This document shows positions 8,858 through 31,461 of a stretch of DNA of 37,474 nucleotides, one piece after another (within the stretch, counting starts at the first letter, position 1; each line of letters opens with the position of its first letter). The notes beneath the pieces are model-generated. The model saw only the letters and a list, made by a program, of their open reading frames with translations, ran no database searches and was not told where the DNA came from. The DNA is from Arenicella sp. GTDB taxonomy: Bacteria > Pseudomonadota > Gammaproteobacteria > Arenicellales > Arenicellaceae. A program made the position numbers and the translations under genes. Where the stretch lies: contig JALZVW010000155.1 in assembly GCA_023301745.1 (NCBI GenBank), positions 1-37,474 on the forward strand. The letters run 5' to 3'.

Positions 8858-10216
8858 ATGAACGAATTTGAACAACTTAGCGTAGACAGTGACGAACCCA
8901 GTGCAAGAAAAGTATTCATTGCCGATAATTTAAAAATTATTATCCCACTGGCTTTGCTGGTTTTCACGGCGATCATAATACTCTTCTTTGTGTATAGCTC
9001 GCCGCAAGCCAAACCGCAGAGAGGCAAGCTAACCCCACCTCTAACGGTGTCGGTGTTTGATGTGAGCGCGCAACCCTTTCAAATTAATGTTCAAAGTTAT
9101 GGCACGGTTTCTCCTCGTACTCAAAGCTTTATCGTTTCTCAAGTTAATGGTCAGATCACCTTTGTAAGCAATAAACTACGCGACGGTGGCTTCTTTAATA
9201 AGGGCGATGTGCTGCTTCGAGTGGATGATCGTGACTACCTTGCTGATGTAAAAATCTCGCAAGCTAACCTTGCTGACGCACGGCAATCATTAGCTGAAGA
9301 GGTAGCGCTTGCATCACAAGCTGCACGCGATTGGGTTAACCTTGGTAACTCAGGAAAACCCGGTGACCTTGTCTTACGCAAGCCTCAACAGCAAGCGGCG
9401 CAGGCGCGTTTAGACGCAGCTCAAGCGGCACTCACTAAAACTCAATTGACGTTAGAGCGCACAACCATAATCGCGCCGTATGATGGCCGCGTGCTAGACA
9501 AGCAGGTTGATCTTGGCCAAGTTATTAACGCCAATACTCAAATTGCTGAAATCTACGCAAGCGATTACTTAGAAGTCAGGCTGCCGTTGCTCACGGCGGA
9601 CCTAAAGTTCGTTAACTTGCCTGAGGAATACCGCAACGCCGGCGCAACCAAGAACGACTCGCCGGTTGATATTTACTCTTCGTTGGTTGAAGGCTCTGAA
9701 CCGTGGCTTGGGAGAATGGTTAGAACCGAAAGCGCGATAGATGAAAATGCGCGCCAGTTGCATGTGGTGATACAAATTGACGACCCCTTTAACTCTGACC
9801 CGCCTATTAAGACACCTCTAAGAATCGGCGAATACGTTACGGCTAAAATTACAGGTAAAGTAATAGAAGACGCGATTGTTATCCCGTCGGAATCGATCTA
9901 TCAAAATTCATATGTCTATATTGTTAATGACAATATAATTTTGCGCAGAGATATCAAAACCCTTTGGCAAAACAACGGCCAATCATTGATTGGTTCAGGT
10001 TTGAACCATGGTGATCTCTTGGTTACGACAACATTGGGTCAAGTTGCGTCGGGCCTAAAGGTGCAGATAGAGGGTGAAACTAAGGCTAAAACTAAGGCTA
10101 AACCGGCTAAAAAAAGTAAGCCTGAAGCGGTGCCAACGCCTAATTCTGAAGGCCCCGGCCCTAAACAAGCAGATGAACAGGCAAACGTGTTTAAATCACC
10201 GAGATTGGTATCATGA
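8858..10216 (+). CDS. RND efflux periplasmic adaptor (HlyD/AcrA family)
   Basis: Membrane-fusion protein that links an inner-membrane RND pump to an outer-membrane channel. The 452-residue protein has a cytoplasmic N-terminal tail and a membrane anchor at about 26-47 instead of a lipobox. The adaptor core follows: a lipoyl half (GTVSPRTQSFIVSQVNGQI), a helical hairpin rich in Ala/Gln, the second lipoyl half (IIAPYDGRVLDKQVDLGQVI), and a beta-barrel. The tail is low-complexity and lysine/alanine/proline-rich from about residue 408. The stop overlaps the start of the transporter gene (ATGA), which implies translational coupling. No ribosome binding site is obvious. No outer-membrane factor gene lies nearby, so a TolC-like partner must be encoded elsewhere. 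Confidence 0.93.
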   Translation: MNEFEQLSVDSDEPSARKVFIADNLKIIIPLALLVFTAIIILFFVYSSPQAKPQRGKLTPPLTVSVFDVSAQPFQINVQSYGTVSPRTQSFIVSQVNGQITFVSNKLRDGGFFNKGDVLLRVDDRDYLADVKISQANLADARQSLAEEVALASQAARDWVNLGNSGKPGDLVLRKPQQQAAQARLDAAQAALTKTQLTLERTTIIAPYDGRVLDKQVDLGQVINANTQIAEIYASDYLEVRLPLLTADLKFVNLPEEYRNAGATKNDSPVDIYSSLVEGSEPWLGRMVRTESAIDENARQLHVVIQIDDPFNSDPPIKTPLRIGEYVTAKITGKVIEDAIVIPSESIYQNSYVYIVNDNIILRRDIKTLWQNNGQSLIGSGLNHGDLLVTTTLGQVASGLKVQIEGETKAKTKAKPAKKSKPEAVPTPNSEGPGPKQADEQANVFKSPRLVS

Positions 10217-13200
10217 TTGAATGGTTTGCGCGCAACGCGGTAGCGTCTAATTTATTGATGGTGACGATTCTGCTGTCGGGAATGATCACCTTAACGCTTA
10301 GGCTAAACTTAGAAATATTTCCATCGTCAGACCCTGATACTATTTCGATCTCGGTCTCGCTGCGTGGCGCGACCCCTGAAGACATGGAGCTTGGGGTTGC
10401 CGTTAGACTTGAAGAAGCGCTTCAAGGCCTGATTGGCATTGATGAAATTCGCAGTACCTCGCAAGAAGGCTCAGCCTCTGTCAGCATCGACGTGAATGAG
10501 GATCATGACCCTCGCGTAATTTTAGATGACGTAAAAAACCGCATCGACTCGATCAGCACGTTTCCGGCCGAGGCAGAGCGACCTGTTATCGCACTGGCCC
10601 AACGCCGGCGAGAAGTTATTTCAGTCGCGGTTTATACCGAGTATGGCGAAGCGGAAACGCGCAGATTAGCCGAGCAAGTCCGCGATGATCTATTACGCAT
10701 TGACGGTATCTCACAAGTTGATTTAGATTCTGTGCGTGGCTACGAAATTGGTATTGAAGTAAGCCAAGATAAGTTGCGCCACTTTGATCTGAGCATCGCC
10801 GATGTCGCGAACGCAATTTCGAATAACTCACAAGACTTATCAGCGGGTAATGTTCGCACCTCGGGGGGCGACATATTATTGCGCTCGAAGGGCCAGGCCT
10901 ATCGCTACGCTGATTTCGCGTCGATCGTTGTTAAGTCCAATGCCGACGGATCGATTATTAAAGTTGAAGATGTCGCCGACGTGCTCGATGGCTTTCAAGA
11001 AGAAGCCTTGCTCGCTCGGTTTAACGGTCAAATTGCGGCGATGATTGACGTCTATCGAACCGAAGAAGAAGATTCAATCGAAGTGGCTGATTTGGTGCGC
11101 GGCTATATAGCGCAACGTCAACAAAGTGGTCTGCCGACGGGTGCCAACATTGAGTACTGGGATGACGACTCGCAATCCTTAAAATCTCGCTTGTCAACGC
11201 TTGGTAGCAGCGCTCTACAAGGCGGTTTGCTGGTCATTATTATTCTTGCTTTATTTCTTCGCCCGGCCGTGGCGTTTTGGGTGACTCTTGGTATTCCGGT
11301 TACCTTTATGGGGGCTATTACGGCGATTGACTTACTTGGCATCAGCATTAATGTCATGAGTTTATTTGGCTTTATCACGGTGCTAGGGATCGTGGTCGAT
11401 GATGCGATCGTCACAGGTGAAAGTGTCTATTCACGGATGCGCAAGGGCGAAGACGGTTTGCTGGCATCAATCAACGGTACTAAGGCCGTCGCTATTCCAG
11501 TGACCTTTGGGATCTTAACCACAATCGCCGCGTTTATTCCGATTACTCAACTCGAGGGTCGCTTAGGGAGTATCTTTTTACCTATCCCCGCGGTAGTGAT
11601 TCCGGTGTTGCTATTTTCATTGATCGAATCAAAATTTATTCTTCCGGCTCACCTCAAGCATATTAAATTGCGTGACCCGAAAACAGCCGGTCGACTAACT
11701 CGCTGGCAAATGGGCTTTGCTCAAGGCTTTGAAGACATGATCCTGCGCTACTACAAACCAAGCCTCGAAAAAGCGATTGAGTACCGATACAGCGTAATGA
11801 TCTTATTTATATGTGCGTTGATCATCATTGTTATGTCGATTTCTACTGGCTGGTCGCGTTTTGTTTTTATACCGAGTGTTGAGCGCGATGGCGGCTCTGT
11901 CACCTTAGTGATGCCAACGGGCACTCCCTTTGAGGTCACTGATCGGCATGTTCAACGTTTTATGGATGTCGGTCTGGAGCTCAAAGAGCAATACACCAAC
12001 GGCGAAGGTGGTGGGCCCATTATTACTAATATTTTCGCAACCACCGGCACATCGGGCCGCGGCGGAGGCAGTGTTACTTCTAATCTGGCGTCGATACGGT
12101 TTGAGGGCATTCCTCGTAGTGAGCGAGTGATCGACCTTTCTAGTATCGAAATCATGCAAGAGTGGCGTGAGCGCGTAGGCGATATCCCTGGAGCCGAATC
12201 GCTAACCTTTCGTTCGCGCGGGTTTAGTGCGGGCGAACCGATCAATGTTGAACTGCAAAGTCAATCGTTCGATGACCTTCAATCAGTCTCTGATCAATTA
12301 AAAGAACGGTTAGCTAAATTTGACGGTGTGTTTGATATTGCCGACACGCTCGCGAACGGTAAAGAAGAGATACAAATCGAGCTCAAACAACAAGGCCATG
12401 TATTAGGCTTGACGCGCAACGGCGTTGTAAGCCAAGTTAGCCAAGCGTTTAATGGCTTTGAAGCACAGCGAATTCAACGTGGCCGAGATGATATTAGGGT
12501 TTTGGTGCGCTTTCCTCGCTCTGAACGAAGCACCACTCAAACCTTGCAAGGCATGCTCATTACCACACCTGACGGTAATCGAATTCCATTATCGAATGTC
12601 GCTGATTTAATTCCCAGTAAGGGCCCGAGCACGATTAACCGTATTAATCAGTTTCGCACCGTCACGGTGTCGGCTGACGTCAATAAAGAAACAACCAATA
12701 TGACCATCATTAATCGTGAAATTGCGGACTTTCTTGATCAGGTGACATCACAATACCCCAGTGTCAGCGTGTCGTTTACCGGTGAAGCCGAAGAGCAACG
12801 CAAAGCGTTTTCGAGCGTACTGCTCAGCTTTTTCGCATTATTGTTTGTTATTTATGCCTTGTTGGCATTGCCATTAAAATCGTACGGTTTACCGTTGATC
12901 GTAATGTCGGTTATTCCATTTTCGTTGGTCGGGGGGGTGTTAGGGCACTGGCTAATGGGGATACCATTGTCATTATTAAGCATTCTTGGGCTGTTAGCGC
13001 TCATTGGCGTGGTGGTTAACGACAGCTTGGTGTTAGTTGACTACATACGGCAAATGCGCGACAAAGGCGTTAGCTTAATTGATGCTGTTCGTGAATCCGG
13101 CGTGGCTCGCTTTAGGCCAGTCTTTCTAACCTCGATAACAACCTTCTTTGGGCTCATGCCATTAACTTTTCTAAGTAAAGGCGACGTTAGCTCGGCTTTT

Positions 13201-13356
13201 CTTCAGCCAATGGCGGTATCACTGTCATTCGGGATAATTTTCGCCACGGTTATAACCTTGTTTTTTGTACCGATTAATATGCTAATCATGCAAGACATCA
13301 AACGGTTCTTGGTTCGTACTTACGGTAATAGCTCGAGTGAGTCTGATCGGGTTTGA
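10213..13356 (+). CDS. RND efflux transporter (AcrB/MdtB family)
   Basis: Proton-driven inner-membrane exporter of 1047 residues, the usual size for the AcrB family. The first membrane helix follows MIEWFARNAVASNLLM. The TM4 proton-relay aspartates appear in GIVVDDAIV (D396, D397). The TM10 region reads GVVVNDSLVLVDY, with Asn where AcrB has Lys940, a variant common in the less-studied RND branches. Two large periplasmic domains interrupt the helices, as expected. It overlaps the adaptor gene by 4 bases. Substrates could be drugs, detergents or lipids, and the sequence does not decide. A 17-bp tandem repeat begins 5 bases after the stop. Confidence 0.95.
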   Translation: MIEWFARNAVASNLLMVTILLSGMITLTLRLNLEIFPSSDPDTISISVSLRGATPEDMELGVAVRLEEALQGLIGIDEIRSTSQEGSASVSIDVNEDHDPRVILDDVKNRIDSISTFPAEAERPVIALAQRRREVISVAVYTEYGEAETRRLAEQVRDDLLRIDGISQVDLDSVRGYEIGIEVSQDKLRHFDLSIADVANAISNNSQDLSAGNVRTSGGDILLRSKGQAYRYADFASIVVKSNADGSIIKVEDVADVLDGFQEEALLARFNGQIAAMIDVYRTEEEDSIEVADLVRGYIAQRQQSGLPTGANIEYWDDDSQSLKSRLSTLGSSALQGGLLVIIILALFLRPAVAFWVTLGIPVTFMGAITAIDLLGISINVMSLFGFITVLGIVVDDAIVTGESVYSRMRKGEDGLLASINGTKAVAIPVTFGILTTIAAFIPITQLEGRLGSIFLPIPAVVIPVLLFSLIESKFILPAHLKHIKLRDPKTAGRLTRWQMGFAQGFEDMILRYYKPSLEKAIEYRYSVMILFICALIIIVMSISTGWSRFVFIPSVERDGGSVTLVMPTGTPFEVTDRHVQRFMDVGLELKEQYTNGEGGGPIITNIFATTGTSGRGGGSVTSNLASIRFEGIPRSERVIDLSSIEIMQEWRERVGDIPGAESLTFRSRGFSAGEPINVELQSQSFDDLQSVSDQLKERLAKFDGVFDIADTLANGKEEIQIELKQQGHVLGLTRNGVVSQVSQAFNGFEAQRIQRGRDDIRVLVRFPRSERSTTQTLQGMLITTPDGNRIPLSNVADLIPSKGPSTINRINQFRTVTVSADVNKETTNMTIINREIADFLDQVTSQYPSVSVSFTGEAEEQRKAFSSVLLSFFALLFVIYALLALPLKSYGLPLIVMSVIPFSLVGGVLGHWLMGIPLSLLSILGLLALIGVVVNDSLVLVDYIRQMRDKGVSLIDAVRESGVARFRPVFLTSITTFFGLMPLTFLSKGDVSSAFLQPMAVSLSFGIIFATVITLFFVPINMLIMQDIKRFLVRTYGNSSSESDRV

Positions 13357-13360
13357 ACTT

Positions 13361-13411
13361 TCTAAGTATCGGAAGTTTCTAAGTATCGGAAGTTTCTAAG
13401 TATCGGAAGTT
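13361..13411 (+). repeat. Three perfect 17-bp tandem repeats
   Basis: Unit TCTAAGTATCGGAAGTT occurs three times without change (13361-13377, 13378-13394, 13395-13411). It is 5 bases after the RND stop and is not followed by a classic terminator. The bases before the first copy are a decayed match, so the array may have grown from the end of the gene. Confidence 0.9.
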
Positions 13412-15413: not shown

Positions 15414-16067
15414 CTATTTGTTTTGCATCGCATCGATAAAGTTTTTCGACTCATTAATGGATGCTTCCATTTGCCTAATCAATACGCCAACCTTATCTTC
15501 AATGACCAAGACTTCACTAGATAAGCTACTCACCGCGCGTGCGTTTAAATTGTGTTTTAGATAAAGCGTGTTGTCTTGTAACACTTTTAATACGGGTTCC
15601 ACTCGTTGTTGTGACATCTGCATTTTTTTGTAGATCACCGCATAGCGTTGTTTGGTGCTATTCAAATTCGCTTCACTGGTGCGCCGCAACGAGGCACTTT
15701 GGTACTCATTGAGCTCTTGCTGCCACTCTTTGAACAGGGCATTGGCAACCTCGTTAACCGATGTTATTCGATCATCTAGTTCTTGCGCTTGTTCTTCGCT
15801 TGCTTTTACCGCTTTAGCCATGCGTTTATATTTTTTCTCTAAGCCGCCGTCGTCGACATTGACTAAGCCTGCAAGCTCGTCATAGGCCGATTTAAATTGT
15901 TGTTTAGTTTCTTCTTGTGTCTCTGATGTTTTCTCAATTCGATCAACCAAGATATCGCGTTTGTGTATGCCCACTTTTTCGAGCGCTGAGTATTGGGCTT
16001 TTTGAACGGTTCCACAGGCCGACAGGGCTAGGGCTAAGCAAAGGGCGAATGCAATTTTCATAGTCAT
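15414..16067 (-). CDS. DUF2959 lipoprotein (paralogue 1)
   Basis: Protein of unknown function, DUF2959 family. The N terminus is a lipoprotein signal with lipobox LSAC followed by GTVQKAQ, so the mature protein should be lipid-anchored in the envelope. The remaining ~195 residues are highly charged and probably all helical. Conserved stretches shared with the neighbour include DGGLEKKYKRM, EWQQELNEYQ, LYLKHNLNARAVSSL and the C-terminal IRQMEASI. The ATG at 16065-16067 is followed by a second in-frame ATG two codons on. It is head-to-head with its paralogue across 107 bases. Confidence 0.8.
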   Translation of the reverse strand: MTMKIAFALCLALALSACGTVQKAQYSALEKVGIHKRDILVDRIEKTSETQEETKQQFKSAYDELAGLVNVDDGGLEKKYKRMAKAVKASEEQAQELDDRITSVNEVANALFKEWQQELNEYQSASLRRTSEANLNSTKQRYAVIYKKMQMSQQRVEPVLKVLQDNTLYLKHNLNARAVSSLSSEVLVIEDKVGVLIRQMEASINESKNFIDAMQNK

Positions 16068-16115
16068 TAAAATGAGTAGTTGTGACAGTAGTTTACCGAT
16101 AGTAACAAAAACACC

Positions 16116-16144
16116 TTACCGCCAATGATAAAACCATGTTAAAT
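16116..16144 (+). promoter_or_regulatory. Candidate promoter of the second DUF2959 gene
   Basis: TTACCG (16116-16121) and TTAAAT (16139-16144) are separated by 17 bases, about 30 bases before the ATG at 16175 and inside the 107-base region shared by the two divergent paralogues. Match to consensus is moderate. Confidence 0.3.
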
Positions 16145-16174
16145 TTTTATTTTGTAATCACCTGAGCGCAAGCA

Positions 16175-16891
16175 ATGAACCCTCTTGTAAAATTTCTACC
16201 GTTTTTAATGAATAGCCAGTTTTTTTCGAAACATAAAAAATGGTTAGTGGTGGTTGCTGCGATTGCTGGTGCGCATCAAATGTTCAGCCCGAATGGCGTG
16301 GGGGCTAATTGGGGTATCCCTAGTTTTGATACATTTTATGCTGAGCCAAGAGATATATTAATTAATCGCGTAGAAGCGGCCAGCGACGCCCAGAAAGAAA
16401 CCGCCGAAGAGTTTAAATCGGCGTTAGAAAAGTTTATAGAAGTCACCAACTTTGACGGTGGTGATTTAGAGAAAAAATTTAATACCTTAAGTTCGGCGTA
16501 TGACCGCAGTGAAAGTGCGGCTAAAAACGTGACACAGCGAGTTGACCGGGTGGTCAGCGCGACTAATAATTTGCTCGATGAGTGGCGCGAGGAACTCGAG
16601 CAATACCACGATGCGGCGATCAAGAGTCGCGCCGAAGCTCAATTTGATGAAACACGTATCAAAGCGCAAAACCTGATCGATGCAATGCGCAAGGCCGAAT
16701 CGAAAACCAAGCCCGTATTGGGTGCACTAAGGGATCAAGTCTTATTCGTGAAACACAACTTAAATATGCAGGCGATCAGTTCACTAAAGCAAGAAAGTGC
16801 CGTAATAGAACAAGACGTATCGGCTTTGATTAAGGAGATGGAAGCATCAATTGCCGAGGCTGAGTTATTTATAGACTCAATTCGTAGCTAG
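16175..16891 (+). CDS. DUF2959 protein with N-terminal membrane segment (paralogue 2)
   Basis: Paralogue of the divergent gene at 15414-16067. Over about 170 residues the two share the same pattern: DGGDLEKKFNTL, LLDEWREELEQYHDAA, LFVKHNLNMQAISSL, LIKEMEASI. Instead of a lipobox this copy has a basic stretch and one hydrophobic segment at about 23-38 (KKWLVVVAAIAGAHQMF). It may therefore be a single-pass membrane protein or carry an uncleaved signal. The rest is charged and helical. Function is unknown. The pair lies next to a cation/proton antiporter, but no direct link is shown by the sequence. Confidence 0.75.
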   Translation: MNPLVKFLPFLMNSQFFSKHKKWLVVVAAIAGAHQMFSPNGVGANWGIPSFDTFYAEPRDILINRVEAASDAQKETAEEFKSALEKFIEVTNFDGGDLEKKFNTLSSAYDRSESAAKNVTQRVDRVVSATNNLLDEWREELEQYHDAAIKSRAEAQFDETRIKAQNLIDAMRKAESKTKPVLGALRDQVLFVKHNLNMQAISSLKQESAVIEQDVSALIKEMEASIAEAELFIDSIRS

Positions 16892-21877: not shown

Positions 21878-21922
21878 ATGCACACATACACTTTAGCCGT
21901 GGATAAACATCAAGATGTCTGA
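21878..21922 (+). CDS. Possible 14-codon leader ORF before the flavoprotein gene
   Basis: ATG at 21878 follows an AGAGAAC ribosome-binding-like stretch and opens a 14-residue frame (MHTYTLAVDKHQDV). Its TGA (21920-21922) overlaps the first codons of the flavoprotein gene: the 21915 ATG lies inside it. The flavoprotein start itself lacks a good ribosome binding site. Translational coupling through this ORF is therefore plausible but unproven. Confidence 0.3.
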   Translation: MHTYTLAVDKHQDV

Positions 21923-23117
21923 AACTAGATTTGACGTTATTGTTCTCGGCGGCGGCGCAGCTGGGTTAATGGCGGCGCTCACTGCTGGGCAACGCGGGCG
22001 ACGTGTCGCGGTGCTCGAGGTGTCAAACAAGCTGGGTAAAAAGATACTGATGTCGGGTGGTGGGCGATGTAATTTCACCAACCTTGAAGTAGAAGCAAAT
22101 CACTTTATTTGTGATAACCCGCATTTTGTTAAGTCGGCACTGGCTCAATATACTCAGTGGGACTTTATCGGTTTAGTGGCAAAGCATGACGTGCCGTATC
22201 ACGAAAAAAGCCATGGCCAACTATTTTGTGATAAATCGGCCAAGGACATTCTCAAACTATTAGTCGACGAATGCGAAGAGGTCGGTGTCGATCTGCGCCT
22301 AAATTGTGAAATTGATAGTGTATGCGTTGCTGATGACGCCAACGAATACAATATAAATACTCACCAGGGTAGCTTTAAAGCGGCCAGTTTAATTGTCGCA
22401 ACCGGTGGCCTGTCGATCCCGAGCTTAGGTGGGGCCACGGGTTTTGGTTACCAGCTTGCCGAACAGTTTGGCCTAAGCTTAAATCCGACCGAAGCGTCGC
22501 TAGTGCCAATGACCTTAAGTGGTAAGTGGCAAGACCTTTCAACGGCGCTATCCGGTGTGTCACTGCCGGTCGCTGTGTCGGTGCCAGAAAAGGGCTTTGC
22601 TGAGAGTATGTTGTTTACTCATCGAGGCCTGAGTGGACCGGCGATTTTGCAATTATCAAACTATTGGAATTCAGGTGACCCGATTAGCATTGACTTACTG
22701 CCGGGCGAAGACGCCGCTGAACTATTTTTGTTGCGTAAGAAGACGAATCCCAAAAGTATGTTGTCAGGCATTTTGAGCAATTTTCTGCCCAAATCGTTAA
22801 TTGCCGAGTTACAAGGCCGATGGTGGGCTGACTGTGCATCGTCAACCTTGCATGAAATGAAAAATGAAGATCTACAGCGTCTCGGTAGCTTGTTTAATAG
22901 TTGGGCATTACGCCCATCAGGCACCGAGGGCTATCGCACCGCCGAGGTCACCCGTGGCGGGGTAAATGTTGACGCTATTTCGTCTAAGACCATGGCCACT
23001 AAAGCGCTTCCAAGCCTGTTTTTCATTGGTGAAGTGCTCGATGTGACAGGTCACCTTGGTGGTTTTAACTTTCAATGGGCTTGGTCTTCGGGCTATGTGG
23101 CTGGTATGAATGCATGA
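21915..23117 (+). CDS. FAD-dependent oxidoreductase, BaiN/HI0933 (YhiN) family
   Basis: Flavoprotein of 400 residues, the normal size for the family. The N-terminal FAD-binding motif is DVIVLGGGAAGLMAA, followed by the family signature KLGKKILMSGGGRCNFTN. A middle substrate domain includes FTHRGLSGPAILQLS, and the protein ends with GEVLDVTGHLGGFNFQWAWSSG, the second FAD contact. Members are widespread and named after BaiN, but their reaction in most gammaproteobacteria is unknown. A TATAAT box at 21813-21818 is a possible -10 element, without a convincing -35. A short ORF overlaps the start. Confidence 0.9.
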   Translation: MSETRFDVIVLGGGAAGLMAALTAGQRGRRVAVLEVSNKLGKKILMSGGGRCNFTNLEVEANHFICDNPHFVKSALAQYTQWDFIGLVAKHDVPYHEKSHGQLFCDKSAKDILKLLVDECEEVGVDLRLNCEIDSVCVADDANEYNINTHQGSFKAASLIVATGGLSIPSLGGATGFGYQLAEQFGLSLNPTEASLVPMTLSGKWQDLSTALSGVSLPVAVSVPEKGFAESMLFTHRGLSGPAILQLSNYWNSGDPISIDLLPGEDAAELFLLRKKTNPKSMLSGILSNFLPKSLIAELQGRWWADCASSTLHEMKNEDLQRLGSLFNSWALRPSGTEGYRTAEVTRGGVNVDAISSKTMATKALPSLFFIGEVLDVTGHLGGFNFQWAWSSGYVAGMNA

Positions 23118-23474
23118 TTGAGTTGAACGATTGTTATCTCAGACGCAATCATAGATAGCTATTAATCATTCTTTGGGTGGTGCTTTGACTTTATTGCGCC
23201 AGGCTATTTCTATTGAAAAAAGGTCTGCGCGAAACCAGTATCCATCAGCGCATTTTTCATCCTTCTTCATCATTGCCTGTGACGCCTCTTCTTGGCCTAA
23301 ATCGAGATGCTGATTTTTCACAGGTGTAGCTTTAAGGATAATACGCCGCAGTGGAATGAATAGAACGGTGCAATGACAATCAAATTCGCCCGTTTGTTGA
23401 AATTCAATATTGTAGTATATTGAGTTTTCCGTTTATAGAAAGCGACATTAGAATCGACTCTGCGCTAGCAAAAA
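23118..23474. other. 357-bp region between flavoprotein and hybrid sensor genes
   Basis: Most of this stretch (23166-23448) is taken by the frame-disrupted minus-strand ORF listed separately. The remaining plus-strand space before 23475 is A/T-rich and should hold the promoter of the sensor gene. I see no element good enough to mark. Confidence 0.4.
23166..23448 (-). pseudogene. Frame-disrupted small hypothetical ORF
   Basis: On the minus strand, bases 23432 down to 23166 are open for 88 codons before TGA and read like real protein (SIYYNIEFQQTGEFDCHCTV ... CADGYWFRADLFSIEIAW), but no start codon lies near its beginning. A good start exists one frame away: ATG at 23446-23448 gives MSLSINGK. 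Dropping a single base near 23424-23430 joins both into a ~93-residue protein. This suggests a one-base insertion, a sequencing error, or less likely a programmed shift. I do not recognise the family. It occupies most of the gap between the flavoprotein and the hybrid sensor and is divergent from the latter. Confidence 0.4.
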
Positions 23475-26400
23475 ATGCAAAAAAAATTGATATTAAATGC
23501 CTTCTTGAAATTGTGTTTTTTGACGTTTTTTTCAAGTTCTGCATTCGCCACTGCACCGCCGTATAAAGACAATTGCATGCCTGTAGTTGAGAACATGCAA
23601 GGCGCAAATCTTTTGTATTTTGGTTTTCACTACCAAGATAATCAAAACCAATTTTCAGCCTCCGATTTGGTATATAGCAAAAATTTTGATGCTTTTTTTG
23701 AGCGTAATAACTTTAATAGAATGGCTGACTTATCGGGCGAATACGTTCTGGGTGAAAGTGGCGTGAGCCATTGGTTGAGGTTCTGTTTATCTAACACAAC
23801 GAATATCGTTCAAAATTTAGTGTTAGCCGCGGCGCCCGCGGTACTTGCTGAAATTGATTTCTACCCGCAAAAAAAAGGATTAAAAGCGTTTCAAACCGGT
23901 AACCGTAAGCCGTTTAGTAGTCGAGATATAAATTCGCCTCAGTATCACTTTAATGTTCAGCTTCAAGCCGGTGAGACACAAGATTTTTACCTACGAGTAA
24001 AATCACGCTCCAAGGCATATATCCGTGCGTCGATATCGAGTGAGCCAGAGTATCTCATTGCAAAAGATGGTAGAGAAAGTTTAGACGGGCTCTATGTAGG
24101 GGTTTTACTTGGTTTAATGCTTTACACCATGCTGCTTTATATTTGGGTGCGCGACCCACTGTCGCTTTTATACATGATTTGGTGTTCGAGCATAATCGTT
24201 TTATTCGCGGCGGTTGATGGCCGAATATTGCAATATGTTCTGCCCGACAACCCCGAACGAGCGTATTCGTTCATTATTATATCCTATCCCTTGTGTGTCC
24301 TTGTCTCAGCGTTCTTCGCTCGCCAATTCATTCGGCTTAAAGAGTTTCCACTGTTAGATAAGGTTGGCCACGCTATTATTGCTGTCTGCGTTGTGGTCAT
24401 AGCGGTGGCGTACCCTAAGGGGCACGTAGTCTATTTTAAAGCCTGCGCTATGAGTGGATTTCTCGTGGTTGTTTATTTTGGTGTAATTGCGCCGTTTTAT
24501 GGAATGGTTAGCCGGCGTTCGACACATAGCAAATACTTGTTAATGGCTCAGCTACCGCTGGTGGTTTGTATTATTGATCGTACACTGTTCACAATGGCAG
24601 TTTCCTCCGAATACGTTATACCGTACACGCCGAAGGTTGGTTTGGGCGCGACCATGGTATTAATGGCCTTATGTAATGGCCTTATTACCTACCGCGAAAA
24701 ATACCAAGCTCAGGACATAGCGATAGAGCAGCTAGAGATTTCGAACAGCTTGAAAAGCAATTTTAACAATGAGCTCCAAGTGGAAGTCGAGCAGAAGACA
24801 ACCCAAATCCGAAAAATCAACGCCGAACTCGAACAACAAAAGCAAAAGCTAATCAAATTAGATGAGGTCAAATCGACCTTTTTTGCCAATATAAGCCATG
24901 AATTTAGAACGCCAATTACACTTATACAAGGCCCTCTTAGTGATCTTTTAGCAAACGAACGATACCCTGAGAAAAGCAGTACCCCGTCGGTGATTAATAG
25001 TGCGATTAGGCAATCTAAATCTTTACAAGCGATGGTTGATCAATTACTGATGTTGAGTAAATTCGATGGCGATTCGCTAAGCCTTCGAGCATCGAAAATC
25101 AATGTCAGTGACGCGGTGAATTTGATAACTACCCAGTTTTATAGCTTCGCTGAAAGCAAGAAAATTAAACTAAGCTTTCAAAGTGAGGCGCCAGAAGTGA
25201 GCGCCTATATTGATATAGAAAAACTACAGGTGATGCTGAACAATTTGTTAAGCAATGCGTTCAAATTTACCCCGGCTAGTGGCCGTGTAGTGGTAGACGT
25301 ATCTAGTGCGGCCGATAGATCAATGTTGGAAGGCGAAAGATCCACCGATGAGTATGTTGAAATTCGTGTCACCGATACAGGGCATGGCATACCTGATGAT
25401 GAACTTGACTATGTTTTTGATCGTTTTTTTCAATCTCGCTCATCGGCATTAAATGGCTCAGGCATTGGTACTGGTATTGGGCTTACACTGGTCAAGGAGT
25501 TTGCGATGTTGCACGGAGGTTATGTTGAGGTGGCACACCGTAGGCGAACAGTCCCGATAAGCCGTGACCAAAACCAAGGTATTGATCAAAACAAGAAAGG
25601 AACCGTGTTTTGCATACGACTACCGCTCGGTAAGGCTCATTTATCGGACAATGAAATAATTGTTAATGGCGATATTGCTCCTCTGATAGGCGAAGAAAGC
25701 AGCCAAATAGGTATTGAGCAAAGTGAAAACCAACCCAAAGCTGAAGTTATAAGCCCCAAAGGTGACCGCCCCACGGTGTTGGTCGTTGATGACAATGACG
25801 ACATGCGTGCCTACATTTGCGGCCATCTACTATCAGATTATCGCGTGATCGAAGCGCAAGACGGCGTTGAAGCCGAGGCCGTGGCCAATAAGCAGCTACC
25901 TGATTTAATTATTACAGATCTTATGATGCCCAAGCGTGATGGCTTAGCGTTTGTTGAATCGTTAAAAACCAGCGAGAACAATAAGCTGGCTAACACTCCT
26001 GTCATTATGTTGACCGCCAAAGCCAGCTTAGATGATCGACTTAGCGGTTTACTTGCCGCCGTCGATGATTACCTTACCAAGCCGTTTGACGCGCGTGAGC
26101 TCAAGCTGCGAGTTAGTAACTTGTTGAAAAAAAATGCCCAGTTTCATGCGTTTTATAGCGCTGGTGAGCCGATTGCCGCAGACAACCTCAAGGAATCGAT
26201 TCAGAGCGACAAGGACCAATTCATTGGCAAAGCGCGCTCAATCGTTGATCAGTATTTGGCAAACCCCGCTTTTGGGGTTAACGAACTGGCCGAGCATTTG
26301 CATGTAAGTCGAGCGACCTTGGCTCGGCGCTTATCTGAGAAGGGTAACTTCACGCCCTCTGAGTTTATTCGGCATTGCCGATTAGACAAAGCTCGGCAAT

Positions 26401-26516
26401 TATCAGAACAAGGAAGCGTTCGCTCTGTCAAAGAGCTCGCTGGAGCCGTTGGTTTTAGCCAAGCTGGTTATTTTTCGCGCCTTTATCAGAAAACCTTCAA
26501 TACCGCGCCTATTTGA
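23475..26516 (+). CDS. Hybrid sensor: 7TMR-DISM - histidine kinase - receiver - AraC HTH in one chain
   Basis: A one-protein signalling system of 1013 residues. Order: signal peptide (about 1-26); periplasmic 7TMR-DISMED2-like domain (about 45-175); seven-helix 7TMR-DISM membrane domain (about 203-410); coiled coil (about 415-465); HisKA with the phospho-acceptor in ISHEFRTP (H475); HATPase with LLSNAFKF (about 590), DTGHGIPDD and GIGLTLV; receiver with VLVVDDNDDMR and phospho-aspartate D815 in IITDLMMP; AraC-type DNA-binding domain at the C terminus (VNELAEHLHVSRATLARRL, then VGFSQAGYFSRLYQKTF). DISM domains of this kind often bind carbohydrate-like ligands. The DNA-binding domain is fused to a membrane protein, so regulation must act from the membrane. 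The collagen-like protein gene is the immediate downstream neighbour. Confidence 0.93.
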   Translation: MQKKLILNAFLKLCFLTFFSSSAFATAPPYKDNCMPVVENMQGANLLYFGFHYQDNQNQFSASDLVYSKNFDAFFERNNFNRMADLSGEYVLGESGVSHWLRFCLSNTTNIVQNLVLAAAPAVLAEIDFYPQKKGLKAFQTGNRKPFSSRDINSPQYHFNVQLQAGETQDFYLRVKSRSKAYIRASISSEPEYLIAKDGRESLDGLYVGVLLGLMLYTMLLYIWVRDPLSLLYMIWCSSIIVLFAAVDGRILQYVLPDNPERAYSFIIISYPLCVLVSAFFARQFIRLKEFPLLDKVGHAIIAVCVVVIAVAYPKGHVVYFKACAMSGFLVVVYFGVIAPFYGMVSRRSTHSKYLLMAQLPLVVCIIDRTLFTMAVSSEYVIPYTPKVGLGATMVLMALCNGLITYREKYQAQDIAIEQLEISNSLKSNFNNELQVEVEQKTTQIRKINAELEQQKQKLIKLDEVKSTFFANISHEFRTPITLIQGPLSDLLANERYPEKSSTPSVINSAIRQSKSLQAMVDQLLMLSKFDGDSLSLRASKINVSDAVNLITTQFYSFAESKKIKLSFQSEAPEVSAYIDIEKLQVMLNNLLSNAFKFTPASGRVVVDVSSAADRSMLEGERSTDEYVEIRVTDTGHGIPDDELDYVFDRFFQSRSSALNGSGIGTGIGLTLVKEFAMLHGGYVEVAHRRRTVPISRDQNQGIDQNKKGTVFCIRLPLGKAHLSDNEIIVNGDIAPLIGEESSQIGIEQSENQPKAEVISPKGDRPTVLVVDDNDDMRAYICGHLLSDYRVIEAQDGVEAEAVANKQLPDLIITDLMMPKRDGLAFVESLKTSENNKLANTPVIMLTAKASLDDRLSGLLAAVDDYLTKPFDARELKLRVSNLLKKNAQFHAFYSAGEPIAADNLKESIQSDKDQFIGKARSIVDQYLANPAFGVNELAEHLHVSRATLARRLSEKGNFTPSEFIRHCRLDKARQLSEQGSVRSVKELAGAVGFSQAGYFSRLYQKTFNTAPI

Positions 26517-26591
26517 AGCATTCGTAAAGAGTCGCTAAAGCAGCGAAAAGCCGCTGAAAACCGGGAAATCAAACAACTTGAACCGATAGGA

Positions 26592-26629
26592 CGTCACTGG
26601 TGCTGCAACATGCGTCACCAGTGCTGCAA
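26592..26629 (+). promoter_or_regulatory. Two 17-bp direct repeats, 21 bp apart: candidate AraC-type operator
   Basis: CGTCACTGGTGCTGCAA (26592-26608) and CGTCACCAGTGCTGCAA (26613-26629) differ at two positions, and their starts are 21 bp apart, two helical turns. This is the arrangement of classical AraC half-sites. They lie between the AraC-domain sensor and the collagen-like gene, 16 bases upstream of a TTGATC element (26645-26650) that could be a -35 box. The differing bases also create an inverted CACTGGTG / CACCAGTG pair. Binding by the neighbouring sensor is inference. Confidence 0.5.
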
Positions 26630-26762
26630 GCGAGTGCGCATGCATTGATCAACCCCCGTTTTTACTTAATAGTTCGTTTAAAGGGTACTTAGTATCAATA
26701 ATAAATTGATGAGTTTAGCTACTAAAACTCACAACATAAACTAAAAACGGGTTACATCTAAA

Positions 26763-28061
26763 ATGAAAAATTTATTCAGCGCACTAATGATATCAATCCT
26801 ACTGGGTGCGTCTTTTGCTGCTATGGCGCAAACCAGAGTGGTGGTTATTCCTTTGTTAGGTGACGATGCAGTATCAACCTGGCGCGGTGCATGGCTTATA
26901 AACACCAGCTACGGCGCAGGAGACCTTGTCGAGTTCGATGGCAGCAGTTATATCGCCATTAATTCACATACTTCGACATTAGGCAATATTCCGCCGAGCT
27001 CTGTTTGGGATTTAGTTGCTGCATCTGGGGCAAACGGAATAAACGGTGCACGAGGGTTGCCCGGAACGCCCGGAACGCCCGGAGCTACTGGCGCTACTGG
27101 CGCTACTGGCGCGCGTGGTCTTACCGGGCCAACGGGTGCAACGGGCGCAACGGGCGCAACGGGCGCAACGGGCGCAACGGGCGCAACGGGCGCAACGGGC
27201 GCATCTGGTGCAGATCTTTTTGAAAGAGTCATTGTTGTGAATGGAGATGGAACACCTGTCCAGAATCGCACGGCATTGAATACGGCAATGATTCAAGCAA
27301 ACAGCCTTGCCAGCGCGACTTCGCCAGTGCTTATTTTCCTAGAACCCGGTATTTATGCTGATGGCGGTCTATCAGCTGTTGACAATGTTTCCATTAAAGG
27401 CTCAGGTAGAAGCACCGATATTCAGGGTGGCTTTACCTTACAAAATGGGGAGATTAGTAATGTTCGTTTTAGCACTCCAGATGGTTTAGTAGAAACGCTT
27501 ACTGTTGGCGGAGTGATTGCGTTCGATAATGTCAGTATAGAAGGTAATTTTCGAATTTCGTCTCAAGTTAATAGCGAACTCACTATGAATAGGTTAAATA
27601 TAAATTCTACCGGTAGTGCGTTGTTAACTACTAACTCAGCTACTTTGATAGTTGATTCATCTACCATATCCGCATCCACTGGCAGTGCTGTCTTTGGAGC
27701 CAGCACTACAATTATTCGTAATTCGAGCTTACGTGCTGGAAACGGGGCATTGGTTGCGTCTTCAGGTGACTCCGTGATTATTCGAAATTCAGAAATCCGT
27801 AGTACCGACGCCACGGTAGCTATTACTGGTCTTGGAGCGATGTTCGACATTAGCAACAGCCTTCTCGAAAACCCAGTTACCAGCAGCCTTTTATCCGCAG
27901 CCCAGGGACTTAGCGCCACAATCACAGGTTCAAGATTTGTTGTTGGCAGCAGTCTAACGGGTACCTCGATTGTTTCCACAACCGAAGTATGTTTGGGTAA
28001 TTCTCTGATCGTTACTGGCACTACCCCTAGCACTAGCTTTCTAACTAATACATGTTTGTAA
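26763..28061 (+). CDS. Secreted collagen-like protein with beta-helix region
   Basis: The 432-residue exported protein has these parts: signal peptide (1-22, ending AMA); a ~45-residue module (about 40-86, [21 protein letters not shown] ... VWDLVA) resembling carbohydrate-binding module 5/12; 21 uninterrupted Gly-X-Y triplets (89-151), mostly Gly-Ala-Thr, which should form a collagen triple helix; and a ~280-residue Ser/Thr/Ile/Asn-rich C-terminal region with repeats such as [20 protein letters not shown] that suggest a right-handed beta-helix. It is probably an extracellular trimeric fibre or adhesin. Its position after the AraC-type hybrid sensor and the 21-bp repeats suggests that the sensor controls it. 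The triplet region is coded by 9-bp tandem repeats, so length may vary between strains without frameshift. Confidence 0.85.
27063..27203 (+). repeat. 9-bp in-frame tandem repeats coding collagen triplets
   Basis: Three blocks of nine-base repeats: GGAACGCCC twice (27063-27080), GGxGCTACT three times (27081-27107), and ACGGGYGCA eight times (27132-27203, seven of them identical). The identity of the last block at the DNA level, not just the protein level, points to recent slippage or unequal recombination. Confidence 0.92.
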
Positions 28062-28079
28062 CTAATAAATATCAGGAAG

Positions 28080-28131
28080 GTAAAAGGGGGCCGGAAGTAG
28101 GCGTGTTTGTCATCGCCCCTTTTACTTTTTT
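28080..28131 (+). terminator. Rho-independent terminator of the collagen-like gene
   Basis: GTAAAAGGGG (28080-28089) pairs perfectly with CCCCTTTTAC (28116-28125) across a 26-base loop and is followed by six T (28126-28131), 19 bases after the stop codon. It is the clearest terminator in the window, although the loop is long. It separates this transcript from the small Cys-rich gene. Confidence 0.75.
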
Positions 28132-28222
28132 GAGAGTCTAAGAATATTGAGATTTCTTTCGATGAGAACCGATAGCCCAAAGTTCTTATCGTTTCTAACA
28201 GGGCTAAATACAGGATGTTTTT

Positions 28223-28597
28223 ATGAATCGACTTATAACAGTAAAGGTTAGTTTTCTTATTTTATTTCTAGCGATTTCTAGTGTGTTCAATACCGTGAAT
28301 GCGCAAGAGCTGAGACAATTGACTCAAGTAGAAATGAGCAGTTTGCTAGACCGAATATTTCAACAAGGTAACTTATGCCCAGAGGGGTTCACGCCCAATG
28401 GCGCATACCCTAAATCGGCGCGTTGTATTAGTTTTACGGGTTATGGTAACTGTCCATCAGTGGCCAAAGGCTGTGTGGAGCAAAGTGTGGCCCTACAGCA
28501 GCCAGCGCGGTTACTCTTTCCAAATACGCCTAAAGAGGTCCCATATTGTAATTGTCCTGCATCGTTTTCGAATTGGGGTTCTGTAAAACCAAACTAG
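28223..28597 (+). CDS. Small secreted six-cysteine protein of unknown function
   Basis: The 124-residue protein has a signal peptide (about 1-27, hydrophobic core VSFLILFLAIS, cleavage likely after VNA). The ~97-residue mature part has six cysteines (52, 68, 77, 84, 109, 111), enough for three disulfides. Short motifs include CPEGFTPNGAYPKSARC and YCNCPASFSNWG. I do not recognise the family. AGGA lies about 9 bases before the ATG, supporting the start. It follows the collagen-like gene but is separated from it by a strong terminator, so it probably has its own promoter. Its secretion and location suggest it may belong to the same extracellular programme, which is inference only. Confidence 0.65.
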   Translation: MNRLITVKVSFLILFLAISSVFNTVNAQELRQLTQVEMSSLLDRIFQQGNLCPEGFTPNGAYPKSARCISFTGYGNCPSVAKGCVEQSVALQQPARLLFPNTPKEVPYCNCPASFSNWGSVKPN

Positions 28598-28904
28598 AGT
28601 CTCGATTCGTTATAATAGGAGTCAGGAGGGGAGATTATCTAGTCACTGAATTCTTAGGAAACGAACCTTTGGACCATGATATACAACGTCACATTAAATG
28701 AACTTGGTGAGCATAGTATTCACCTATGCTTGCCATCTATGTTGGTAGAAAGAAGGCTATATAAAAATAGCTTGGCCACTTCACTTTGGGGTTCACAAAG
28801 GTCATCGACCAGATTAAGGAACGTTAGGTCTAAATACGTCTATACAAGTATTCCAGTATAGAATGGTAGTGAAAGTGGTTGTTATGTTTGGGTCTTATTT
28901 ATGA
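28598..28904. other. 307-bp convergent intergenic region
   Basis: It lies between the 3' ends of the Cys-rich gene and the TerB-like gene. A 61-codon open frame at 28676-28861 has no ribosome binding site and an implausible composition. I see no terminator or RNA gene here. Confidence 0.4.
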
Positions 28905-29366
28905 TCAGAAATCCTCAATCCCCATTTGCAGCTTAGCATTCTCTTGAGTTTGAAAAATTTGCATCTCGTTTAGGCACAATAGGCCGGCGAGCTTACGAAC
29001 TAAGGTATTTTCATCTTGATCAATTGTCTGGTCTGCGAGCGCGACCAGCCATAGGTTTTCAAGCAGCTTCATGCGTTTGGCATTGCCCCAAGTTTCGCAA
29101 ATAGTGCGGGTGATTTTCTTTAACGCGTCTTCATCGGGGCGAGATTTTGAAATTTGGGCAAATAGGGCGTTTAGGTCTTCTTGGCGAAGGTTGAATTGAC
29201 GCCGTAGAACCTCCGTCATGGTGATGAGTTCAATTCGATCTACTCGGCCGTCGGCCTTAACCACTTCAAGCATTAAACGAGCGGTTGCTAATCTAACGTC
29301 TGATTCGAGAGGCTCGCTGTTGCTCACCTGCCTTGACTTGAATAGCTTTTTTACTGGTTGAAACAT
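28905..29366 (-). CDS. TerB-like (tellurite-resistance-domain) protein
   Basis: Cytosolic all-helical protein of 153 residues with a TerB fold. The paired acidic, metal-binding-like motifs are visible: VVKADGRVDRIEL in the first half and ALADQTIDQDENTLVRKLAGLL in the second. Proteins of this type are common single-gene TerB relatives and usually have no proven tellurite role. The N terminus is basic (KKLFKSRQ). It lies 221 bases downstream of the aminotransferase gene on the same strand. A 7-bp inverted repeat (TGTCTTA / TAAGACA at 29424-29447) lies in between, upstream of the start. Confidence 0.75.
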   Translation of the reverse strand: MFQPVKKLFKSRQVSNSEPLESDVRLATARLMLEVVKADGRVDRIELITMTEVLRRQFNLRQEDLNALFAQISKSRPDEDALKKITRTICETWGNAKRMKLLENLWLVALADQTIDQDENTLVRKLAGLLCLNEMQIFQTQENAKLQMGIEDF

Positions 29367-30933: not shown

Positions 30934-31461
30934 CTATTTCATTTTATCTAACAAGACGTAAACCGCACCGGTGCCGCCGTCATTTGCTGGCGTTGAGACC
31001 ACCGCAATCACATGTTGATTTTTACTAAGCCAGCCAATAAGCATGTTTTTTAGTACCGGCTTACGACCCGCCGAGTTACGACCTTTACCGTGCACGATGC
31101 GAATGGCGCGCACATTGTCTCTGGCGCATTCATTAACAAAACCGTGGGTTTCTTGTTTCGCGTCTCCGGCGACTAGGCCGTGTAGATCCAATTCATCTTG
31201 GATTGCGTAGTCGCCACGGCGTAATTTTTTAAGTAAACGGCTGGAGAAACCAGAGCGCAAAAACTTGAGTTCGTCACCGCTTTCAAAGCTGGCACTTTCG
31301 TCAGACTCTTCGAGCAATTCATCCAGCACTCTTTGATCGTCTAACAAACGCTGTCTGGGCGTGGTGTCGGCCGGTTTACGGTAGGGCGCGATTTTATCTT
31401 GCTTAAGTGGTTTAACACCAAGCCCTATTAATCGCGCCATGCTGTCATCGTCTGAACCCAA
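30934..31461 (-). CDS. smrA: Smr domain endonuclease-like protein
   Basis: The 175-residue protein has a C-terminal Smr domain: LDLHGL with the DxH motif, then IRIVHGKGRNS with the HGKG signature. Small Smr proteins such as E. coli SmrA/SmrB are RNA or DNA endonucleases, and SmrB cuts mRNA at collided ribosomes. The N-terminal SDDDSM...VKPLKQDK pattern fits SmrA-like proteins. Because that region is conserved, I keep the TTG start at 31459-31461 (no earlier start is possible because a stop lies just upstream) rather than the ATG at 31438-31440. The gene starts 32 bases after trxB and is probably cotranscribed with it. Confidence 0.82.
   Translation of the reverse strand: MGSDDDSMARLIGLGVKPLKQDKIAPYRKPADTTPRQRLLDDQRVLDELLEESDESASFESGDELKFLRSGFSSRLLKKLRRGDYAIQDELDLHGLVAGDAKQETHGFVNECARDNVRAIRIVHGKGRNSAGRKPVLKNMLIGWLSKNQHVIAVVSTPANDGGTGAVYVLLDKMK

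Follow-up and report, generated by a model that had tools for sequence, protein, structure and literature searches.

Many AraC-type factors have 21-bp direct repeats, and E. coli AraC itself has 17-bp half-sites at 21 bp. The 7TMR-DISM kinases and cyclases RetS, LadS and NicD share an input module made of a DISMED2 domain and a seven-transmembrane (7TM) part, and they signal through GacS or cyclic di-GMP (c-di-GMP). As far as the accessible text of PMC8544897 goes, the DISMED2 domain of NicD reportedly binds carbohydrates, and SagS and NicD together direct attachment as a response to glucose-6-phosphate. For the hybrid two-component systems (HTCS) of Bacteroides, the accessible part of Ravcheev et al. 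(2013, PMC3878776) gives operators inferred as direct repeats averaging 21 bp, some of them as 16-bp sites with a 5-bp spacer, links 25 of the 36 HTCS in B. thetaiotaomicron to SusC/SusD and glycan-use genes and calls the class unique to Bacteroidetes. Here we analyzed 37,474 nucleotides from Arenicella sp. (contig JALZVW010000155.1 of assembly GCA_023301745.1), in the following called the window, which carry the gene of a 1013-residue sensor-regulator followed by the genes of a collagen-like and a six-cysteine protein (Table 1). From sequence comparison we consider it likely that the sensor is an HTCS-like regulator with a small regulon in which the surface proteins are exchangeable, and that it would receive a signal, relay phosphate, bind DNA and activate its targets. 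The window lies on contig C155 of genome G000 (3.05 Mb in 191 contigs, 95% complete; other genomes are numbered likewise), which groups with the gammaproteobacterium Arenicella.

In the Pfam scan the chain scored above the curated cut-offs for 7TMR-DISMED2 (residues 53-187), 7TMR-DISM_7TM (202-399), HisKA (466-531), HATPase_c (580-719), Response_reg (768-880) and HTH_18 (938-1012), and this order within one open reading frame (ORF) agrees with the original prediction of a single chain leading from a periplasmic sensor via the 7TM part, kinase and receiver to an AraC-type helix-turn-helix (HTH). All nine kinase and receiver residues that we selected (H475, N590, D634, G636, D772, D773, D815, T847 and K869) are present and unchanged across eight aligned sequences. 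Against PDB sequences the DISMED2 domain gave no significant match, with only RetS-type sensor domains appearing at E 0.75 and 0.91. The chain thus shares its DISMED2 and 7TM input module with RetS, LadS and NicD but differs from them in the output, for which the same chain carries a DNA-binding domain, and in the insignificance of the sequence match to the RetS domain.

As in the Bacteroides AraC-type HTCS, described in the accessible part of PMC3878776, periplasmic sensor, kinase, receiver and AraC HTH are found in one chain, and the regulator is encoded beside its putative targets, with more remote ones being possible as well. For the operators inferred there as direct repeats, putative counterparts at a pitch of 21 bp are seen by sequence in the window and at four other loci, and none behind the sensors of G001 and G002. 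Unlike in Bacteroides, the host is a gammaproteobacterium and not a member of the Bacteroidetes, the input is 7TMR-DISM and not the COG3292 present in most of theirs, and where theirs control polysaccharide-use loci, the proposed targets here are individual surface proteins that differ among the loci. As HTCS were stated in 2013 to be confined to Bacteroidetes, which concerns distribution and not structure, and the host is gammaproteobacterial, we use the label 'HTCS-like'. The papers listed, largely openly accessible ones, gave no description of a 7TMR-DISM and AraC HTCS driving marine surface proteins and nothing on collagen-like proteins with carbohydrate-binding modules (CBMs) in Gammaproteobacteria; what was found on HTCS in Gammaproteobacteria concerns, in its accessible part, xylan use.

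Table 1: Features of the sensor locus, with positions counted from the first letter of the window.
Feature	Position	Strand	Basis
5.8-kb block with sensor, collagen and six-Cys genes	23118..28904	.	synteny with G006
Sensor-regulator, 1013 aa, hybrid two-component architecture	23475..26516	+	Pfam; orthologs
7TMR-DISMED2 periplasmic sensor domain, residues 53-187	23631..24035	+	Pfam, E 1e-19
Receiver domain, residues 768-880, with D815, T847, K869	25776..26114	+	Pfam; alignment
AraC-type double HTH, predicted DNA-binding, residues 938-1012	26286..26510	+	HTH_18, E 4.2e-17
Putative operator half-site 1, CGTCACTGGTGCTGCAA	26592..26608	+	direct repeat, 21 bp start to start
Putative operator half-site 2, CGTCACCAGTGCTGCAA	26613..26629	+	direct repeat; 133 bp before collagen ATG
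Secreted collagen-like protein, 432 aa	26763..28061	+	Pfam; crude signal-peptide scorer; model; triplet count
21 Gly-X-Y triplets, residues 89-151	27027..27215	+	triplet count
Terminator-like hairpin 3' of collagen gene	28072..28133	+	inverted repeat; folding
Secreted 124-aa orphan with six Cys	28223..28597	+	crude signal-peptide scorer; Cys count

The 246-base spacer between the sensor and collagen genes carries the arrangement CGTCACTGGTGCTGCAA-N4-CGTCACCAGTGCTGCAA with a pitch of 21. Searching the window with the half-site gave two matches and one more with 3 mismatches, and three matches occurred in 0 of 100 shuffles. The 27-nt stretch 26592-26618 is 96% identical behind the sensor of G008, and outside the repeat the longest exact word common to the two spacers has 9 nt. 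Direct repeats at 21 bp were found behind four of the seven other orthologous sensors, two of them weakly: G008 has the same repeat as the window, one of the two G009 loci (C63) shows three TGTCACAAACGTCTCAA-like half-sites, one with a mismatch, and G010 and G015 show weaker CACAAACC- or CTCAAACC-type repeats. For seven sensor-downstream regions (window, G008, G009 C63, G010, G015, G001 and G002, with G009 C165 left out) we compared 18 pitches from 16 to 33, and 21 was the best in five of them (P 1e-5 if pitches are equiprobable), for which 300 mononucleotide shuffles per region at any pitch gave P values of 0.003, 0/300, 0/300, 0.087 and 0.09. The HTH residues SRATL and GFSQA are common to the window and G008, both having the GTCACTGGTG site class, while G009 C63 has SKATL and GFNQV, and G010 and G015 have SEATL together with CACAAACC- or CTCAAACC-like sites; for these five loci and the residues chosen by us, this co-variation is as expected if the sensor reads the site. 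The repeat before the collagen ATG and its recurrence at the four loci back the earlier proposal that the AraC hybrid sensor controls its neighbouring gene, and the sensor probably acts on the next gene.

No weight was given to an any-pitch scan of 40,055 intergenic bases at a threshold of at least 13/16, in which pitch 21 appeared in the window and G008 only and pitch 17 five times, because its complexity filter lost the G009 triple repeat, its threshold lost G010 and G015, and because of these pitch-17 hits. Upstream of the sensor itself, where autoregulation would be expected to act, eight regions compared without shuffling gave no pitch-21 match of at least 12/16; the highest value, 11 in G010, was the best pitch of its row. 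A distant sensor relative in G018 showed 11/16 at pitch 21 on both sides, with other pitches being equal or better.

Similar sites were then sought elsewhere in the genomes. A first pattern built from three sensor-adjacent sites and searched in 19 genomes with at most 2 mismatches had 13 hits, compared to 7 for the reversed pattern. Away from the sensors it matched G008 C74 without mismatch and G000 C183 as well as two places in G009 C42 with 2 mismatches each, and we attributed to chance the remaining hits, which likewise have 2 mismatches (G005, G007 with two, G017, G018). A second pattern (CACAAAC...), which was built after seeing those sites and allowed up to 3 mismatches in 21 genomes, gave 8 hits against 3 for its control; six of them had 0-1 mismatch and were all in sensor genomes, the sites at G000 C183 and both sites at G009 C42 were perfect, and one 3-mismatch hit fell in the sensor-less G014. 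With a profile of nine sites the members scored between E 1.4e-6 and 0.011 in the 21 genomes, matching by construction, and nothing else came below E 0.29, giving no extra sites.

These nine sites, five sensor-adjacent and four elsewhere, each lie ahead of a gene in the right orientation as judged by eye. Behind G000 C183 there is a choice-of-anchor-Q protein, the two G009 C42 sites precede one choice-of-anchor-Q and one Lcl_C protein, and the gene at G008 C74 is an ORF cut by the contig end. A signal peptide was recognised by eye in all nine targets (P 3e-5), and a crude scorer, not SignalP, called 8 of 9 compared to 66 of 208 background genes, a background that itself contains part of the targets and is probably too high (P 7e-4). 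The single collagen-like match and the single choice-of-anchor-Q match in the window's genome are both site-preceded genes. The similar tails in which two of the site-bearing choice-of-anchor-Q proteins (L139:7718-9097 and L141:1867-4293) end, SFFVIPVSGGKAVIVEL and SFFVVPLPNGKSVIFSL, may act in sorting as a C-terminal signal.

It might be argued that the sensor regulates other genes, that the collagen gene is its neighbour by chance and that the repeat belongs to another AraC-type factor. The commonness of 21-bp repeats among such factors and the lack of a site at the G001 and G002 sensors would fit this explanation, which we nevertheless regard as unlikely, as five loci have the site immediately behind the sensor and strong sites are restricted to sensor genomes, being present in five of seven and in none of 11 sensor-less congeners (Fisher 0.0025, kinship ignored). 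That the strong copies keep to sensor genomes among the 18 genus members further speaks for control of the neighbouring gene.

Several observations weigh against an HTCS-like regulator with its own regulon. The G001 and G002 sensors are not followed by a recognisable repeat (best pitches 18 and 24, P 0.34 and 0.61) and neither genome has a significant profile site anywhere; the HTH of G002 (SKATL, GFNQA) resembles that of G009 C63, yet there is no recognisable site. The repeats of G010 and G015 are each weak when taken singly, and of the four off-sensor sites three carried 2 mismatches in the first-pattern scan, as many as the chance hits did. The two sites of G000 differ in class (GTCACTGGTGCTGCAA and TTCACAAACGTCTCAA, with TCAC...CAA in common), yet one sensor was found, so that the second site may belong to a missing regulator. 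Many choice-of-anchor-Q matches lack a site in sensor genomes (20 in G001, 17 in G015, 9 in G010). Finally, there is no consensus sigma-70 promoter between the site and the collagen gene, the scanned stretch as a whole giving two matches compared to 3.0 expected. Considering the 20 and 17 choice-of-anchor-Q matches of G001 and G015 next to the one in G000, the load of surface proteins may also vary widely within the genus.

Sensor orthologs are present at seven other loci in 6 of the 17 other genus genomes (42-60% identity), with two in G009 and one truncated at its N-terminus. At E<=1e-120 none was found beyond the genus among the 109 genomes of the order, and the distant relative in G018, which belongs to another genus, is 30% identical. 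The nearest relatives of the window's species as judged by a neighbouring gene, G007 (79%) and G006 (76%), are both without the sensor, making its distribution patchy, for which loss and horizontal transfer fit alike. Sensor relatives also occur in records whose titles name other phyla. Separately, relatives of the kinase-receiver-HTH part were seen in metagenome-assembled genomes of Nitrosomonas sp. (L075, 36%) and Wenzhouxiangella sp. (L108, 32%), and with these members of the Proteobacteria HTCS-like chains may exceed the distribution described in 2013, unless the contigs are misbinned.

The genes behind the sensors differ from locus to locus. The gene downstream encodes a FadL-like outer-membrane protein in G008, an exported protein with Receptor L (leucine-rich repeat (LRR)-like) and P-domain matches at G009 C63, a chain of about 1,816 residues matching the trimeric autotransporters YadA and BimA below the cut-offs in G010 and an exported FG-GAP protein in G015, and in G002 the contig ends 79 bases into an ORF starting MKKLFCLLAMSLMVHASFANAFELES. 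Convergent SRPBCC- and ArsR-like genes, then a beta-helix-like protein, follow in G001, and convergent TRAP transporter-like genes at G009 C165. The names SRPBCC, ArsR, TRAP, S8 peptidase and dienoyl-CoA reductase were given by eye, and family scans covered some of the neighbours. Five of the seven neighbours look exported and are on the same strand, one of them being cut by the contig end. Including that of the window, all five complete same-strand successors were called exported by the crude scorer and have at least 300 aa, compared to 21 of 122 same-strand pairs in a background consisting of the fetched loci, themselves chosen around sensors and collagen genes. Beyond signalling proteins the only flanking family recurring among the eight loci is one 54%-identical pair in G008 and G009 C63, which looks dienoyl-CoA reductase-like by eye.

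The original prediction saw the sensor and the collagen gene as a dedicated, conserved module for attachment. Their adjacency in the window and the operator-like repeat before the collagen gene are in line with it, but a collagen gene adjoins the sensor at none of the seven other orthologous loci, and clear collagen relatives in six other genus genomes sit away from the sensor (about 271 kb apart in G015), where neither operator pattern matched. These six do not include G008 and G051, where the matches to the collagen tract were weak. Across 18 genomes both homologs occur in 4, the sensor alone in 3, collagen alone in 3 and neither in 8 (Fisher P 0.33, or 0.14 if the weak G008 collagen-only match is counted). 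Being contradicted within the genus, this explanation is very improbable. The sensor homologues are indeed beside genes unrelated to collagen, as had been named as a reason to abandon the proposal, yet what remains of it is the position of an exported protein on the same strand behind most sensors.

Three of the collagen relatives adjoin a subtilisin-like peptidase gene and a gene with a twin-arginine translocation (TAT) signal, as seen by eye. This recurring cluster (L031, L032 and L033 in G015, G004 and G005) comprises a small TAT-signal protein (LPLWHKPLVNAIVLPAHAQTS-like), the collagen protein and the subtilisin-like peptidase, the TAT-signal gene being divergent from the other two; a Collar domain was found in L031, the one that was scanned. 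A similar collagen-peptidase pair is present in G011.

A comparison with G006 delimits the sensor locus. There a gap of 0.12 kb separates the flanking genes (21915-23117 and 28905-29366 in the window; identities 76% and 71%) and the 5.8-kb block between them is missing, within a synteny of two genes to the left and five to the right. Either a gain in the window's genome or a loss in G006 would fit. After the left flanking gene, G012 has a homolog of 30934-31461 and G007 has different sequence reaching to the contig end; therefore, the place of the block is variable. The expectation of a self-contained module thus holds to the extent that the block is discrete and absent at the same place in G006. 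No SusC/SusD or glycan-use families, which are usual but not defining companions of HTCS, were found among 19 window proteins scanned, a subset of the window ORFs. A target-site duplication at the block ends (GATTGTTAT-like on both sides) was considered and is too short for a claim. Elsewhere in the window two divergent DUF2959 genes lie side by side (15414-16891) and a perfect tandem repeat with a pitch of 17 (TTTCTAAGTATCGGAA-like, 13359-13410) follows directly 3' of the ORF 10213-13356.

The missing block in G006, the different gene behind similar repeats in each species and the two consecutive surface genes of G009 C42, each with a near-identical repeat, could also mean that the 21-bp repeats serve as sites of recombination or attachment through which surface genes are swapped, and are not, or not only, operators. 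We consider this quite unlikely, as a Pfam scan of the block's three genes found no mobile-element families such as recombinases or transposases, the repeats found sit 5' of the target gene, strong copies are limited to sensor genomes and half-site length and pitch fit the published HTCS operators, as given in the accessible part of PMC3878776. Homologous recombination between operators could explain the exchange, and the two explanations are therefore not exclusive. A further and more tentative idea, which we find possible but rather doubtful, is that of a plug-in cassette in which the sensor and its 3' operator are a landing spot for different exported surface proteins, one per species, with collagen-like, LRR-like, trimeric autotransporter, FG-GAP and porin cargo set under the same input.

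The collagen-like protein consists of a signal peptide, an N-terminal stretch, a CBM5/12-like module (residues 43-74), the triplets and a beta-rich C-terminal part. Pfam matches to Collagen (36.9 bits, cut-off 27.2) and CBM_5_12 (27.5 bits, barely above the cut-off of 26.2) and the triplet count bear out the predicted secreted protein with a carbohydrate-binding-like module and 21 collagen triplets. As an exported protein with a G-X-Y tract, according to triplets, Pfam Collagen and the crude scorer, it resembles the bacterial collagen-like surface proteins Scl1/Scl2 and Lcl, from which it differs in reaching 30-33 bits against NCBIfam family cut-offs of 325-500, in its CBM5/12-like N-terminal and beta-rich C-terminal parts and in that no LPXTG was seen. 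In the assembled genome its sole match at E<=0.01 is itself. A 9-nt unit repeated in tandem (27125-27203, 8.9 copies) codes for part of the collagen tract, whose length could therefore vary among strains. For the C-terminal part a beta-helix had been predicted. A single-sequence AlphaFold2 model consists nearly entirely of strands (mean pLDDT 58, pTM 0.65), and Foldseek found nothing at E<=0.001 (best E 0.29); among the 50 matches listed were many right-handed beta-helix proteins (tailspikes, polygalacturonases, AlgE epimerases) and several LRR receptors (TLR, LGR4). While the beta-rich fold agrees with the prediction, model confidence is low and the matches are insignificant, leaving a beta-helix weakly supported.

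A [KR]VVV[IV]PLxG[DE][DE]-like N-terminal stretch directly after the signal peptide is common to this and other exported proteins (window 26763-28061, L022:4296-5384, L028:6659-7621 and L030-L036) with differing remainders (collagen, beta-helix-like, Lcl_C, Collar), and may be a sorting or assembly tag.

The third gene is, as predicted, that of a secreted six-Cys protein, judged from its ORF, its signal-peptide-like start and the Cys count. It had no match in Pfam, NCBIfam or PDB and none at E<=0.001 among 60 other genomes. Between the collagen and six-Cys genes lies a stable hairpin: for the 73-nt stretch 3' of the collagen stop codon the folding energy is -27.9 kcal/mol (z -3.6, with none of 200 shuffles equally stable), and the hairpin, whose T-run is partly inside the stem, was missed by a simple terminator scan allowing loops of 3-8 only. 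The six-Cys gene is thus probably transcribed separately from the collagen gene, and pattern and profile scans found no operator-like site before it.

With the HTCS-like regulator as the favoured reading, the following model can be proposed. The periplasmic 7TMR-DISM (DISMED2) domain would sense a ligand, for which a carbohydrate is suggested by analogy, because the DISMED2 domain of NicD is said to bind carbohydrates and SagS and NicD act in attachment (PMC8544897, accessible part). The kinase would autophosphorylate at H475 and pass the phosphate to its own receiver at D815, and the AraC-type HTH, probably as a dimer, would bind at 26592-26629 to the two half-sites, which have 16-17 bp each and a pitch of 21 bp, and switch on the collagen-like gene downstream. 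The regulator may also act on the second surface protein, the choice-of-anchor-Q protein at G000 C183. Across Arenicella species the regulator would be kept, with a recognisable operator in five of seven genomes, and the surface protein encoded behind it changes from species to species. In this model the surface proteins would act in attachment, and the differences between species would have arisen by replacement.

If the cassette idea is true, it would provide a modular way to re-equip the cell surface. HTCS-type regulation, known for glycan-use loci of Bacteroidetes, would reach into a marine gammaproteobacterium and take in surface proteins, and 7TMR-DISM sensing would be tied to the choice of the surface protein by a single step that involves neither c-di-GMP nor Gac/Rsm. 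With a concrete candidate operator in hand, the regulon of the sensor is directly testable, and as the switch would be kept while the protein is changed, the locus may serve as a tractable example of regulatory wiring that outlives its targets.

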